DNA of 22,125 bases, taken from IMG/VR virus record IMGVR_UViG_3300030333_002266, positions 1 through 22,125 of that record, one strand, 5' to 3'. Position numbers and translations under genes: made by a program. The notes beneath the pieces are model-generated. The model saw only the letters and a program-made list of their open reading frames with translations, did no database searches and had not been told where the DNA came from. This document shows, one piece after another, positions 5,416 through 22,124 of this stretch. Origin of the DNA: a virus. Position 1 is the first letter of the stretch; every line of letters starts with the position of its first letter.

Positions 5416-8400
5416 ATGGCTATAACTACAGTACATGGAAGAATGGTAACAGATGGTTCTATTGGAACTGTTGATTTAGATGGTAGTAGTGTTACAACTG
5501 GTTTTAGCGGAGTAACTAAAACTGATAATGGTGATGGTACTCTTGATATTATATTTACTGCTGTAGGTGGTCAGACATATACTATTGTAACTCCTGATTT
5601 AACTGGACCAGCTGGACCTACTGGTGCTACTGGAGCTACTGGAAGTGCTGGAGCAACTGGAGCGCAAGGACCAGCTGGACCTACTGGTCCGACTGGACCA
5701 GCTGGTACATCTGGTATTACTGTTACAGGATTTTCTTCTACATCTAATAACGATTATACAGAAACTATTACTTTAACTTTCTCTGATAATAGTACGCATA
5801 GCTTTACATCACAAAATTTAAGAGGTGCTACTGGTGCTACTGGTGCAACTGGACCTCAGGGTGCAACAGGAAACACAGGACCTACAGGACCAACTGGACC
5901 TACAGGAAATACTGGGCCTCAAGGTGCAACTGGTGCTACTGGAGCTACTGGTACATCTATTACAGGAATTAGCTTAACTGATAATAATGATGGAACTTAT
6001 GACATAGTACATACTATGTCTGCTGGTTCTAATATTACAGTAACAAGCCCTAACTTAACTGGACCTACTGGAGCAACTGGAGCTACTGGAGCTACTGGAC
6101 CACAAGGAGCTACTGGACCACAAGGAGCTACTGGACCTCAAGGTCCTCAGGGCGAAACTGGTGCTACTGGACCAGCTGGACCAATGGCAAATCTTGTTGA
6201 AGATACAACTCCACAATTAGGTGGTGACCTAGACTTAAATGGAAATGTTATTACAGGATTAGAGCCTGGAACTACTGCAAACAAATTAGTGCAATTAGAT
6301 GGTAATGCTAAAATACCAGCTGTTGATGGATCACAATTAACTAATCTTCCAGCATCAGGAGGTGTGGCAACATTAGTGGCTGATGGAGCTATTACTGCTG
6401 GTAAGCCTTGTATATTAACTGCTGCTGGAAAAGCAAAACAAATTGCACAAACAGGAAATAGTGTAACAGAGGGTTTTGGAGCAACAACAGACTTTATAGG
6501 AAATAATGGAAACTATAGTCCTGTAAATATGGCAGTAATAGGAACAAATAAAGTAGCAACAGTATATACTGATGATAGCAATAGCGATTATCCAACTGTA
6601 CAAGTAGGTGAAGTTAATGGTTCGACTAACGCTATTACATGGGGAACAAAAACTGTAATTGATTCTAATGCCACTAATGGAACAGGCATTGTTTGGAAAT
6701 CATCAAACAGTACTTTAGGAGTTTTGTATAAAACAAGCTCTTGGGCAGAAGTTAGAGGTTGCACAGTTTCTGGCACATCAGTTACAGTTGGTAGCAGTAA
6801 TTTAAGTTTAAGTGTAACAAATACAAATCTATATGGAGCTATGCTCGATCCAGATACAGATGAAATGATATGTTGGATAATGGATTTTGTAAGCAGTCAA
6901 AGAGTATTAAAATCATTTGCTGTTGACCTTGATGGAACAAACACACCAACTTTATCTCATTCACATACAACAGGCGCGTTAAATAATGTATGGTGGGGTT
7001 CAGGATCTGCATTATCTTGCGCTTATGACACAAACACCAATGTTTTTATATTAACAAACTCAAAAGATGAACCAGATAGTGCAGTTAGATTTATTGTTCA
7101 AACAAATACAGGATCAGCATTTACCACAACAGAAAGAACAAAAGCTATAACAGGATTTTTAGGTTATGGTACATTTTGTTTTGATAGCACAAATAACAAA
7201 GTTGTTTATGCTTTTAGAGATAGTGCAGATAAAGTAGGTATTGTTAATTTAACAATGTCGGCAGATGACTTTACAGTTGGTTCGATAACAACGACAACAT
7301 TAGTTAACGGAGGTGCAATTCAATGGTTAGCTTATGATCCATCAAGTGAAAGAGTAGTTGCATTTTCAGGTAAAGCTGCTGCTGTTGGTGCAAATTATGG
7401 TGTGTATTCTAATGATGGTACAACTTTAACAGAAATTTCAACAGCAAATTTTGGTAGTACAACTCAAGATTATTGGGCGCAACGAGGTGCTGTTACTCAA
7501 ACAGCTATGACTGGTTTAGCTTCAAATCCTATAGTTTTAGCTATGCGTACAAATACTTCTAACACAAGTTTTGCTGGAGCTTTTTCAGTAGGGCAAACTC
7601 CTGTTACAAACCTTGATAACAATTATATAGGACTTGCTTCAACAACTGCATCAGACGGACAGAATGTAGATATTAACTTAACAAATAGTATTAACACTTC
7701 GCAAAGTGGATTAACTATTGGAGATGATTATTTTTCAAATGGTGCTGGTGAGATTAATCCGTTTATTAAAAGTGCAACAACAACACATACTTATGCAACT
7801 GGAACAGTAGCAGCTTTAACAACTGTTAATGCGTCTGCAAATAATAAAATAGACATAATTTATGATACACATAATGACAAAGTGTGGGCGTATTGTAAAG
7901 ATGGTGATAATTCCAATTACCCAACTGTTATTGTAGGAGATATTTCATCAGGAACAAGTATTACATGGGGTACGCCTGTAACTGTTACAAGTAATACTTA
8001 CTCTCCAACATCAAAAATGACGCAAAGAAATATAGCAAGTGATGGATCAGGAAATATTCTTGTAGCTTATCGAGATAATTCTAACGATTATGCAAGAGTA
8101 AAAGTTGGTAATTATTCTGGTACTAACAGCGCAACTTTTGGTAATGAGTTACAACCAGAAAATATTAGCGCATTAGAAACAATAGATATAGGTTACTGTT
8201 CATCTGCTAATTTGTGGTATATGTTTCATGGCAATAGCACATCAACTAGTTGGGCATTGATGAAACAGAATAGCGGCAATCAAAACTTTGACAGTTGGGA
8301 TTGGGGAACTATACATACTGGTAATGCAGTAGTCATAAACAATATTTATAACTCTACTAATAATAAAATAATTGTTGGATTCAATCAAACTGGTGATGGC

Positions 8401-11704: not shown

Positions 11705-12270
11705 TGGATAAGATTATTGAAATAGTTAAAGGCATTATATCACCAGAGCAATCTTGGTCAGCTTTTGTTATGAAGATCATTGGTCTTATTGTTGTGGCTG
11801 TTATTGCTTATGTTGGTTTCCAACAATACTCAAGTCTAACTGTTGAAGAAGATACAGAGATTCCTATTGAAGAAGTATTTGAAAAGGACCCAGAAAAGAA
11901 AATTAAAGTAGAAGAATTAATCAGTAAACTGTTAAGGTCAGATAGAGATATTGAATCTGTGTGGTTGTATGATTGGATTGATGCTAGAAATATTGCACCA
12001 TTAATTAATATGCCAGCAAATAGTATTGATCTATTACCTACTGGTTACTGGATGGAGGGCGATGAGTATGTCATTGGGCATTTTGTATTAGGACAATGCA
12101 CATCATTAGATAGAGATACTGTTAATATTGCATGTAGTGTAATGTCTGCTGAAGATAGCTGGGGTTTTGTATTAGTACAATATATAGATGGTGTTACTCC
12201 AGATTTAAAAACAACTAAAGCTACAGCTATGAGAATATCTGAAATATTATATTTAATAGAGAGAAACTAA
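11704..12270 (+). CDS. Membrane-anchored protein with exported domain, unknown function
   Basis: 188 residues from ATG 11704, which overlaps the holin-like stop by one base. An upstream in-frame extension to 11653 lies inside the holin-like gene and is unlikely. Residues 20-42 form one strong TM helix (FVMKIIGLIVVAVIAYVGF). After it come an acidic linker and a mixed domain of about 130 residues with paired cysteines (Cys at about 129 and 142) that could form a disulphide if exported. I do not recognise the domain. Position between the holin-like gene and a second TM protein suggests a role at the inner membrane during lysis, or in superinfection exclusion. Both ideas are inference. Confidence 0.65.
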   Translation: MDKIIEIVKGIISPEQSWSAFVMKIIGLIVVAVIAYVGFQQYSSLTVEEDTEIPIEEVFEKDPEKKIKVEELISKLLRSDRDIESVWLYDWIDARNIAPLINMPANSIDLLPTGYWMEGDEYVIGHFVLGQCTSLDRDTVNIACSVMSAEDSWGFVLVQYIDGVTPDLKTTKATAMRISEILYLIERN

Positions 12271-12575
12271 TGGCAGTAAAAGTATCAGACTCAAGTGTAA
12301 TATCTATACCATTAAGAAATCTTGTAAGCCTTATAGCTGGTAGCTGTATAGCTGTGTATGGTTACTTTGGTTTAACTGAAAGATTAAATTTTCTTGAGCA
12401 TGAGTTAGAGTTAAAGAATAAAGATATAGTTCTTAACTCAGAGTTCAGAGTTAAATGGCCGAGAGGTGAGTTCGGTGCGCTCCCAGATGATGCACTTCAA
12501 GACATGCGGATTGAGCAACTGCAAGAAGAAGTTAGTAAACTTAAGGAGCAATTAGATGAAATCAATAAAGATTGA
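12270..12575 (+). CDS. Single-TM coiled-coil protein, candidate inner-membrane lysis protein
   Basis: 101 residues; ATG overlaps the previous stop by one base (TAATG). A short N-terminal cytoplasmic part is followed by a TM helix at about 17-36 (LVSLIAGSCIAVYGYFGL), a helix with heptads (RLNFLEHELELKNKDIVL), a WPRGEFGALPDDALQD loop and a final coiled coil (MRIEQLQEEVSKLKEQLDE). The order of N-terminal TM then periplasmic coil is what an inner spanin has, so it may pair with the lipoprotein encoded at 11017. It could also be a tail-related membrane protein. Family not recognised with certainty. Confidence 0.65.
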   Translation: MAVKVSDSSVISIPLRNLVSLIAGSCIAVYGYFGLTERLNFLEHELELKNKDIVLNSEFRVKWPRGEFGALPDDALQDMRIEQLQEEVSKLKEQLDEINKD

Positions 12576-19883: not shown

Positions 19884-20855
19884 TTAATTCACAACAACTT
19901 TAGGTTCTTTGTTATCCAATATCCAAGTTGCTGCTTTACTTGCTTGAGCAATACACTTAATAAGATACTGGCTGTCATCTTTAATAGCTCTATCCCATGA
20001 TGCTATGTATTTAAGATGATTAGGTTGTGCTTTAGCAATCACACCTAACTCTGTGCATACCATTATACTACACATCTCAGCTATTAATTCTTCTTTAGCT
20101 CTGCTCTCCTTACATGTATGGTATGAATCCATATCTCTATTCAATCTTGATGGATGGCCTGTAAGATGACCAGCCTCATGGAATATAACAGATAGATACT
20201 CTTGAGTAGCATCTGATTCTCCATCAATACCATGAAACTTCCATTCTTCTGGCATTACAATAGTATCTGTGCTTGACTGGTAGTATGCAGCATTACCTTG
20301 ATGTTTAAGTTTAGCTCCTTGTTTCTTCATGAACTTAGATATTAATTCTTCACAATCTTTATTCATATCAACAGCATTAGCTTTAGGTTCATCATTAAAG
20401 ATAGCATAGTCTTTGTCTTTCCAGACTTTAGCACCGTGATATACTGGAGTAACTTGATCTCCATTCCAGCCAGGTATTGTTTTCCATCTGTATATATATT
20501 CTTTACCAGTTTCTTGATTGACTCTAAAGACAGGCGTTATAATTCCACACTCACTTGCACCATTAGGTGCATATCCTATGCTAGCCCAGCCTTTATATGT
20601 TGCCCAGAATTTAGATTTATATCCATTCATTTCAGATACCATACTCATTAACATATTGTTAACTCCTTTGTATCTATTAAGTTTATTATCTTTTGATTGT
20701 GGATTTAAATAAGCTGCTTTGTATTGATCTTCAAAGGTAAGCTGCCATGTTCTTTGCCACTTACCCTCCTCATTACCAGCGTCTTTTATTATAGATAAAA
20801 ACTTAGAGTTAAATCTTTTTGTGTTAAACTCATACACTTTTTTTGTCTTAGACAT
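19884..20855 (-). CDS. ArdC-like antirestriction protein (ssDNA-binding domain plus zincin)
   Basis: 323 residues; AAGAGGAACAA before ATG 20855. The N-terminal half (about 8-150) has ArdC features: GKWQRTWQLTF in place of pW..pW, NRYKGVNNMLM (60-70), and GYKSKFWATYKGWASIGYAP (78-97). The C-terminal half is a metallopeptidase-like domain with HEAGH at 226-230 (H226, E227, H230) and a downstream EELIAEM helix (255-261) supplying the likely third ligand. ArdC proteins bind ssDNA and protect incoming DNA from type I and some type II restriction. All zincin residues are present, so catalysis is possible. Length matches the family. It overlaps the small gene upstream by 8 bases. Confidence 0.85.
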   Translation of the reverse strand: MSKTKKVYEFNTKRFNSKFLSIIKDAGNEEGKWQRTWQLTFEDQYKAAYLNPQSKDNKLNRYKGVNNMLMSMVSEMNGYKSKFWATYKGWASIGYAPNGASECGIITPVFRVNQETGKEYIYRWKTIPGWNGDQVTPVYHGAKVWKDKDYAIFNDEPKANAVDMNKDCEELISKFMKKQGAKLKHQGNAAYYQSSTDTIVMPEEWKFHGIDGESDATQEYLSVIFHEAGHLTGHPSRLNRDMDSYHTCKESRAKEELIAEMCSIMVCTELGVIAKAQPNHLKYIASWDRAIKDDSQYLIKCIAQASKAATWILDNKEPKVVVN

Positions 20856-21033
20856 TTGTTCCTCTTATAAATTTAGTGTTGTTAATTTTAATATCAGTTA
20901 CTCCATAGTCTATATCTTCAAGCCATGTCTTGATTTCACTAGCGATGTGTTCTTCATCAACCCATGTGTCATCTTCATCATTTGAATCATCTCTTGATAG
21001 AGTAAATGATACATCAAATTTTTCTATTGCCAT
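20848..21033 (-). CDS. Small acidic protein of unknown function
   Basis: 61 residues; AAGGAGAAACTA before ATG 21033. A beta-like N-terminus (FDVSFTLSRDD), a strongly acidic loop (DDSNDEDDTWVDEE), one amphipathic helix (IASEIKTWLEDID) and a final strand (VTDIKINNTKFI). It looks like a compact alpha/beta fold. It lies between the AlkB-like and ArdC-like genes, 10 bases after the first and overlapping the second. The acidic character might allow DNA mimicry, but size and position are the only support. Confidence 0.6.
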   Translation of the reverse strand: MAIEKFDVSFTLSRDDSNDEDDTWVDEEHIASEIKTWLEDIDYGVTDIKINNTKFIRGTNV

Positions 21034-21043
21034 TAGTTTCTCC

Positions 21044-21583
21044 TTAATTAGTTTGTCTAAATGTTATGCTTATTCTTTTACCCATAGGTATTGATGTACC
21101 GTGTGTATACACATGTTGGAAGTTGCCCTCTGGCATTATGTATATATCTTTATCTTCTTGTTTAAAGCTAAATGATTTACCGGTATTCTTTCTTACTATG
21201 AATATATTAGTTTGCTTTCCAAAGCTAACTGTTGCAACTGCTCCAGTAGTTCCGTCAGGTTTTACAAAGATAGGCTCATCATCTGAGTGTTGAGCTATAC
21301 CTTTAAAGTCATAAGCGTTTAGTAATGCGCTATTGAAATATCCTTTTGGATATTTGAATTTATGTTCTAATCTTCTAGCTAGATGTATAAATTCATTAGG
21401 CATATCTTGTGCTTTATGTCTAACTCCTGTGTAACCGTAGTCTACTGGGCCATACCATGTAGCTGTATGGTTGCGGTAGTTTCTACCAGATACCAAGTTA
21501 TTATCAACTTGTATCTTATTCCAAAGGTAATCAAACTCTATATCTATTTGTTTAATCTTACCTCGTTTTATTGTGTGATTCAT
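21044..21583 (-). CDS. AlkB-like 2-oxoglutarate/Fe(II) dioxygenase
   Basis: 179 residues; AAAAGGAGAATATA before ATG 21583. The AlkB core is complete. LLNAYDFKGIAQHSDDE carries N89, Y91, the iron ligands H99 and D101, and E103. AVATVSFGKQTNIFIVRK follows. The third iron ligand is H161 in YTHGTS, and KRISITFR supplies the 2-oxoglutarate arginines R170 and R176. AlkB enzymes oxidatively remove alkyl groups from bases, usually in ssDNA or RNA; phage versions are known. The sequence is short at the N-terminus, as in many viral AlkBs. It heads the operon with the ArdC-like gene, and its leader carries an apparent attenuator. Confidence 0.85.
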   Translation of the reverse strand: MNHTIKRGKIKQIDIEFDYLWNKIQVDNNLVSGRNYRNHTATWYGPVDYGYTGVRHKAQDMPNEFIHLARRLEHKFKYPKGYFNSALLNAYDFKGIAQHSDDEPIFVKPDGTTGAVATVSFGKQTNIFIVRKNTGKSFSFKQEDKDIYIMPEGNFQHVYTHGTSIPMGKRISITFRQTN

Positions 21584-21597
21584 TATATTCTCCTTTT

Positions 21598-21656
21598 AAA
21601 AAAAATTAGCTACAGGATTTAGTATATCTGGGGAGATGACTACTTCCTCCTGTAGC
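21598..21656 (-). terminator. Terminator or attenuator in the leader of the AlkB-like gene
   Basis: On the - strand, GCTACAGGA (21656-21648) pairs perfectly with TCCTGTAGC (21617-21609), and the stem is followed by TAA and eight Ts (21605-21598). The loop is 30 bases and contains a minor GGAG/CTCC pairing. The T-run ends four bases before the AAGGAG of the AlkB-like gene. A terminator placed directly before a ribosome site suggests attenuation, or the 3' end of a small RNA with partial read-through. Confidence 0.6.
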
Positions 21657-21660
21657 ATTG

Positions 21661-21725
21661 TGCTGTAATGAGTAGCTCGAAGCGTTCTCTCTGGCGATTA
21701 GCCAAGTTCCCTCATATTTACAGCA
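21661..21725 (-). ncRNA. Upstream stem of a structured leader or small RNA
   Basis: On the - strand TGCTGTAA (21725-21718) pairs with TTACAGCA (21668-21661), and after a bulge TGAG pairs with CTCA (21714-21711 with 21672-21669). Inside is a small TGGC/GCCA hairpin (loop TAATC). Only four bases separate it from the terminator-type hairpin. The AGCTAC within it (21677-21672) is complementary to GTAGCT in the 3' arm of the terminator, so the two could be alternatives. No known riboswitch class was recognised. Confidence 0.45.
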
Positions 21726-21781
21726 GATAGAAACAGAAAATCATAATGCTCTTTCCATTTTTAAATGACAAACACACAAAA

Positions 21782-21807
21782 GAATAGCCGAAGTTAATCG
21801 GCTATTC
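21782..21807 (-). terminator. Strong rho-independent terminator
   Basis: A perfect 10-base stem, GAATAGCCGA (21782-21791) and TCGGCTATTC (21798-21807), with a six-base loop. On the - strand it is followed by TTTTGTGTGTTTG. It lies 11 bases after the stop of the rightmost gene. It separates that gene from the AlkB-ArdC operon, so the operon needs a promoter between about 21725 and 21780. A weak TTGTCA with CATTAT, 17 apart, occurs there on the - strand. Confidence 0.85.
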
Positions 21808-21818
21808 AGTTTGCTAGA

Positions 21819-22124
21819 CTAAGCTTTGATTGCGTTGAGCTTAGCTTTTTGGTCTTTGATTAGCTGAGCTGGTGTCTTAGAAGAACCAGACTTAGTGTCT
21901 GACCTCTCGAATCGCTTAGCTTGTTTCTTCTTGTATTCTGTGTAGGTTTCTCCGAAGAAGAAAGTCCAAACATAATCACCAGTTAAGATAACCCTTTTCT
22001 TTAGATGAGGTTCTAGTAAATCTTCGTAGATTTCTAGGTATTGAGAACTGGTTTCTATTCTGCCCAAAGCCATAACTTCTGGACTGTGTAGTGGGTTACC
22101 AGATTCATCATATAGAGGTTCTCT
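21819..22124 (-). CDS. Protein of unknown function, N-terminus cut by window edge
   Basis: The frame is open to the right edge. The first ATG inside (22073) has no good ribosome site, so the protein probably starts outside the window; 101 residues are visible. It begins REPLYDESGNPLHSPEVMALG and continues with helices (YLEIYEDLLEPHLKKRV). A hydrophobic and aromatic GDYVWTFFFGETYTEY follows, then a long basic tail (KKKQAKRFERSD, PAQLIKDQKAKLNAIKA). The basic C-terminus suggests nucleic-acid contact. Family not recognised. A strong terminator just downstream shows it ends a separate transcript. Confidence 0.65.
   Translation of the reverse strand, partial: REPLYDESGNPLHSPEVMALGRIETSSQYLEIYEDLLEPHLKKRVILTGDYVWTFFFGETYTEYKKKQAKRFERSDTKSGSSKTPAQLIKDQKAKLNAIKA

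Follow-up and report, generated by a model that had tools for sequence, protein, structure and literature searches.

A structured two-domain leader RNA before the antirestriction operon of Hodr-like marine podoviruses

Results

Genomic context of the leader

The window, the whole stretch of DNA analysed here, covers 22,125 bases of a virus record that is 23,496 bases long. Read along its minus strand, the C-terminal part of the first early gene is followed by a terminator-like hairpin (T1), a structured leader and an operon beginning with genes for an AlkB-like oxygenase, a small protein (MAIEKF...) and an ArdC-like antirestriction protein (Table 1). Leader-bearing contigs were gathered by 17-mer, TerL, ArdC and D1-pattern searches and represent a group of Hodr-like marine podoviruses. 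The isolate closest to the window's phage is Hodr, a Pelagibacter (SAR11) phage. The terminase of contig L019, standing in for that of the window, is 68% identical to the terminase of Pelagibacter phage EXVC031P Hodr, which makes SAR11 bacteria the probable hosts of the leader-bearing phages.

Each record holds a single copy of the leader, at a fixed site immediately before the same operon. The first-pass annotation had assigned it to AlkB, an assignment that the relatives contradict: AlkB is gained or lost between leader and operon, and in L006 and L019, where it is missing from this place, the leader, U-run included, leads straight into the MAIEKF open reading frame. This frame (61–73 aa) comes first behind the leader in L006, L019, L108–L111, L113 and L114, and ArdC does so in L033, L118–L120 and L127. 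The gene upstream is barely recognisable between phage groups. With the genes on both sides exchanged, the RNA is therefore the fixed point between them.

We considered the first early gene as a regulator and set it aside, as its product has no family match and has diverged almost past recognition between groups. All three contigs of the window's clade carry, adjoining the intact first early gene, a decayed inverted copy of this gene and T1, in which T1 is 83% identical over 64 nt and the frameshifted protein about 30%. In L019 the ArdC gene is split into two frames; it is intact in L006, which has the same leader.

Table 1 Features of the leader locus and of related contigs (window coordinates unless a contig is named)
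Feature	Position	Strand	Basis or remark
First early gene, C-terminal part	21819..22124	−	fast-evolving; continues past window; 204 aa in L006
T1, terminator-like hairpin of upstream gene, TTTTGTGTGT	21782..21807	−	10 bp
Promoter-like TTGTCA-17-CATTAT, T1–D1 interval	21743..21771	−	weak match; not evidence of function
D1, three-way-junction RNA domain	21661..21725	−	fold, covariation, leave-window-out model
D1 outer stem 1 arms, TGCTGTAA and TTACAGCA	21725-21718, 21668-21661	−	folded as 7 bp, 3-nt AAU bulge, 5 bp
D1 P1	21719-21725/21661-21667	−	7 bp
D1 AAU bulge	21716-21718	−	
D1 P2	21711-21715/21668-21672	−	5 bp
D1 J2/3 GGAAC	21706-21710	−	
D1 P3	21701-21705/21691-21695	−	
D1 J3/4 AGAGAAC	21684-21690	−	
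D1 P4	21681-21683/21675-21677	−	small hairpin
D1 J4/2 UA	21673-21674	−	
D2, terminator-like hairpin	21598..21656	−	z −4.8, covariation, conserved loop and U-run
D2 stem 2 arms, GCTACAGGA and TCCTGTAGC	21656-21648, 21617-21609	−	
D2 stem	21648-21656/21609-21617	−	9 bp
D2 apical hairpin AUCU-CCCC-AGAU	21626-21637	−	
D2 spacer UAA	21606-21608	−	
D2 U8 (T8 in DNA)	21598-21605	−	
Shine-Dalgarno GGAG, first operon gene	21590..21593	−	sequence
AlkB-like 2OG-Fe(II) oxygenase	21044..21583	−	PF13532, E 1.5e-11
61-aa ORF (MAIEKF...)	20848..21033	−	tblastn
ArdC-like antirestriction protein (ArdcN + MPTase-PolyVal)	19884..20855	−	Pfam, tblastn
Decayed inverted copy, first early gene and T1	G000 about 22540-23400; L019 4528-5204		G000 copy partly beyond window
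Split ArdC gene	L019 2134-3127	−	
D3, small structured element, UAGUCAUCCCCA...GARCGACUUUAAAAGUG	L108 2694-2761; L111 103-163	+; +	
Multi-branched RNA	L113 about 1822-1970; L109 about 1295-1440; L033 about 6440-6600	+; +; −	
GGGUGCGGGCAGUUC...GAACAACACGGC element	L113 about 1190-1330; L109 about 720-850; L033 about 7030-7165	+; +; −	
Nested inverted repeats, AATAATAACAAC/GTTGTTATTAT and TTGCCAAT/ATTGGCAA	Hodr (L022) 12222-12357	+	

Two RNA domains form the leader

The leader (21598-21725, minus strand) consists of two independent RNA domains, D1 and D2, which correspond to the two neighbouring stems that the first-pass annotation had placed here. As a whole it folds with a minimum free energy of −38.2 kcal/mol (z −2.8), equalled by 1 of 200 shuffles. 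When the domains are folded separately, D2 has a z of −4.8 with none of 200 shuffles as good, and D1 a z of −1.9; because folding energy alone is convincing just for D2, the case for D1 rests on comparison.

D1 spans 65–77 nt among the relatives. Its alignment holds seven distinct sequences, which represent three lineages; 96% of the cells are paired and six pairs are altered on both sides, a level of covariation reached by 0 of 500 shuffles and by no slid alignment. When the window's clade is left out of the D1 model, the model still recovers the window at 57.7 bits (E 8.9e-12), with L019 its sole other match within 337 kb. The junction strands J2/3, J3/4 and J4/2 together with the P4 stem are invariant in 19 of 20 columns, and P1 in 2 of 12, a pattern expected where an RNA presents a conserved binding, tertiary or three-dimensional surface.

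D2 has the form of an intrinsic terminator, a stable hairpin followed by a U-run, and here the proposal of a leader ending in a terminator-like structure is borne out; we infer that transcription terminates at this U-run. The eight Ts and their four-base distance (AAAA) from the AlkB ribosome site had been read exactly, although a UAA spacer separates them from the stem that they were said to follow. Relatives carry U6–U9 behind a 3–5-nt spacer, with z from −4.8 to −8, and the U-run lies 0–4 nt from the Shine-Dalgarno sequence in all of them. In six sequences, drawn from three lineages, pairing of the 9-bp stem is complete (100%), and five of its nine pairs are changed on both sides, which 0 of 500 shuffles match. 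The apical loop UYUCCCCA is invariant among D2 relatives, and its UCUCC complements GGAGA in the ribosome-binding sites of the leader operons. A simple terminator scan misses D2 because its loop of ~30 nt exceeds the size limit of the scan.

Homologous leaders thus carry the compensatory changes on whose presence the original proposal depended; with about three lineages per domain, the number of independent covariation events is therefore small. Because matching base changes preserve the fold while the flanking genes on both sides are exchanged, we conclude that the leader is a genuine structured RNA, beyond what chance would produce.

Distribution and modularity

L006 and L019, with leaders 98.8% identical to that of the window, belong to its clade. 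Both domains are found in L109, L110, L113, L114 and L134, and D1 without D2 in L108. L033, L119 and L120 retain a related outer base (GUAAAUCUGAG...CAGUAC) around a different inner domain, followed by D2. D1 is missing from L118 and L127, in which a short loop caps P1, and from L111, which has another element (D3) instead; D2 is retained in all three. L115 has a truncated D2, and neither domain is present in L116, L124 or Hodr (L022).

Several candidates were discarded. The exact 17-mer scan matched 16 contigs, two of them genuine relatives and the others chance matches within coding DNA; the loop-plus-T-run matches L105–L107 and the D1-pattern match L132, an RNA-phage contig, are likewise chance, and L001, reached via AlkB, lacks the leader. 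A contact between GGGA of D1 and UCCC of D2 is feasible in most leaders and is not claimed here: the window and L033 have GGGA on different sides of the junction, and L118 and L127 lack it.

Transcript context and further structured RNAs

T1 closes the upstream gene in each group and also precedes the leader in L108–L114, L134, L033 and L118–L127. About 45 nt separate T1 from D1 in the window and L108, enough for a promoter. In the L113 and L033 groups D1 begins a few bases past T1, with neither a promoter match nor room for one, so that D1–D2 there is probably transcribed within a longer RNA, with a terminator-like hairpin on either side. At the equivalent junction Hodr has a near-consensus promoter, TTGACA-17-AATAAT.

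Other structured elements occur nearby. A large multi-branched RNA (z about −4.5 to −7.4), whose arms visibly covary, lies immediately before the first early gene and, taken with D1–D2, suggests a set of leader RNAs. A further conserved, strongly structured RNA or palindrome, with the core GGGUGCGGGCAGUUC...GAACAACACGGC and z −5 to −9, separates divergent small ORFs; neither of these two elements has an Rfam match. D3 stands in for D2 in L108 and comes before D2 in L111. In Hodr, long nested inverted repeats lie right before the ribosome-binding site of the first early gene.

Discussion

We tentatively favour, at a little under an even chance, a transcriptional gate: a conserved leader RNA that acts in cis, and without alternative pairing, on transcription of the delayed-early antirestriction operon (an optional AlkB, the MAIEKF frame, ArdC and recombination genes). 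We prefer it because a longer message seems to run through D1–D2, which lies between two terminator-like hairpins and 0–4 nt from the Shine-Dalgarno sequence. A polymerase arriving from upstream would first transcribe T1, next the three-way junction of D1 and finally D2 with its U-run, where by default a fraction of polymerases would halt. D1, with its invariant junctions and changeable helices, would allow polymerase through; it might act on the enzyme in the manner of HK022 put RNA or bind a factor from phage or host, and would not exchange pairing partners with the terminator. The inferred parts of this gate are read-through, any trigger and what D1 does. In its favour are the covariation, the leave-one-out match, the single copy and the constant place before the operon, as is a U-run that keeps its distance from the Shine-Dalgarno sequence despite three different first genes. 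Counting against it are the persistence of D2 where D1 is lost (L118, L127 and L111), the promoter-sized T1–D1 gap in the window and L108, and the derivation of the covariation from about three lineages per domain; the 3-nt spacer ahead of the U-run may also reduce termination. Lying downstream of T1, D1 cannot carry polymerase past that hairpin.

The main rival to the cis gate is a processed small RNA of about 130 nt that acts in trans, ends at D2 and uses the invariant C-rich loop as a UYUCCCCA seed against G-rich, Shine-Dalgarno-like sites in host or phage mRNAs, the operon being expressed by leaky read-through. We regard it as unlikely, though a serious contender. The U7–U9 end of D2 resembles small RNA 3′ ends, UCUCC complements the GGAGA of ribosome-binding sites, D3 of L108 and L111 likewise contains UCAUCCCCA, and alphaproteobacteria offer a precedent with C-rich loops (PmaR, PMC6234868). 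A promoter for it would fit between T1 and D1 in the window and L108, but our check found a weak match in the window and no match in either the L113 or the L033 group, both of which leave no space for one. The constant abutment on the Shine-Dalgarno sequence of one and the same operon, and the dispensability of D1 in L118 and L127, also speak against a small RNA.

That loop complementarity, shared by every D2 relative (L033, L119 and L127 include one G-U), would equally suit an element of mRNA processing, stability or translation, in which an RNase acts at D2 or D2 shields the 5′ end as a hairpin, and the loop may pair with the adjacent GGAGA to tune translation of the first gene. A hairpin held 10–20 nt upstream of the Shine-Dalgarno sequence fits this proposal. 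The match is weak evidence, however, as it is unable to covary with a nearly constant Shine-Dalgarno sequence, and the conserved U-run and invariant D1 junctions are left unexplained; we consider such an element quite unlikely.

Those junctions, unpaired and invariant in a compact three-way fold with covarying helices and an apparently exchangeable inner domain, immediately before a terminator, could also belong to a metabolite-binding riboswitch with D1 as aptamer and D2 as expression platform. We judge this very unlikely: D1 and D2 show no conserved pairing of the antiterminator kind, the element is restricted to one phage group, a strict D1 pattern has no match in bacterial genomes, and no metabolite is common to the downstream genes.

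The first-pass annotation had proposed mutually exclusive folds, with AGCTAC of the first stem pairing with GTAGCT of the terminator arm. The two are complementary (21677-21672 and 21613-21608), but AGCTAC spans the 3′ strand of the inner hairpin and the junction rather than an arm of stem 1. AGCUAC is invariant across type-A D1, whereas GUAGCU is confined to the window's clade, and no conserved alternative pairing of D1 with the terminator arm was found among the leader relatives. Forcing the pairing gives −23.9 against −38.0 kcal/mol for the native fold, 14 kcal/mol worse, with a pairing probability of 0, and 182 of 2000 D1 shuffles (9%) match the arm at least equally well. A classic attenuator in which AGCUAC sequesters GUAGCU, for all the six-base complementarity of the window, is thus refuted as a conserved mechanism, and we give it next to no weight. 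Nor did we find a conserved short ORF over the stems that would mark a leader-peptide attenuator (window, L113, L108 and L033, in which ORFs differ or are absent); the window's 20-aa ORF across D2 is not open in L033.

A broader extension of the cis gate, which we hold to be rather unlikely, is a phage-exclusive modular RNA class in which a constant outer base and terminator would frame exchangeable inner domains (the three-way junction in the window, L108 and L113, another in L033 and L119, deleted in L118 and L127). It would control read-through from early to delayed-early genes without any switch of base pairs, and its phages would carry further unlisted structured RNAs stacked in the same early region. 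To our knowledge, little is known of the timing of gene expression in SAR11 phages, and an RNA backed by covariation, set where the first early gene meets the antirestriction-recombination operon, offers a definite regulatory site that can be tested.

Comparison with known systems

As the first-pass annotation had remarked, the leader falls in no recognised class: Rfam 15 gave no match at the gathering threshold in the window and 13 related loci, and relaxed scans gave matches far below it, none convincing on D1. Candidate preQ1-II and glutamine-riboswitch identities were rejected for scores too low or a wrong order of elements. INPHARED phages and PLSDB plasmids contain no real leader match, a strict D1 pattern has 0 matches across 84,980 bacterial and archaeal genomes, and a limited search of the pelagiphage literature found no such RNA. 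The leader is a new, previously unlisted RNA motif. It shares with the marine and phage motifs of Rfam (manA, wcaG, Downstream-peptide/glnA, PhotoRC-II) a structured form, typically in a 5′ UTR, but matches none of them at gathering or relaxed thresholds.

With small RNAs of the PmaR type, known from alphaproteobacteria such as Agrobacterium (PMC6234868), the leader shares an exposed C-rich loop and a U-rich 3′ end; unlike them, it occupies a fixed site before one operon, in some relatives without room for its own promoter. Terminating riboswitches and attenuators likewise place a conserved folded domain just before an intrinsic-terminator-like hairpin and a Shine-Dalgarno sequence, but the leader has neither a conserved alternative pairing of domain and terminator nor a conserved leader peptide.

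The closest precedent, by analogy of location and logic, appears to be HK022 put. In lambdoid phages, terminators stand in front of the early genes; the put RNAs, about 70 nt long, act in cis to suppress termination (PMC9378689). Like putL and putR, D1 is a structured RNA of about 70 nt in the early region of a phage, in cis and near early-gene terminators. The put RNAs form two stem-loops upstream of the terminators that they overcome, whereas D1 forms a three-way junction with a terminator-like hairpin on either side, and for want of the two-stem-loop form we do not class it as put. The likeness is drawn from location and logic, not sequence, and an effect of D1 on RNA polymerase is hypothetical. 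Were D1 an antiterminator, protein-free phage antitermination would reach beyond the lambdoid phages.
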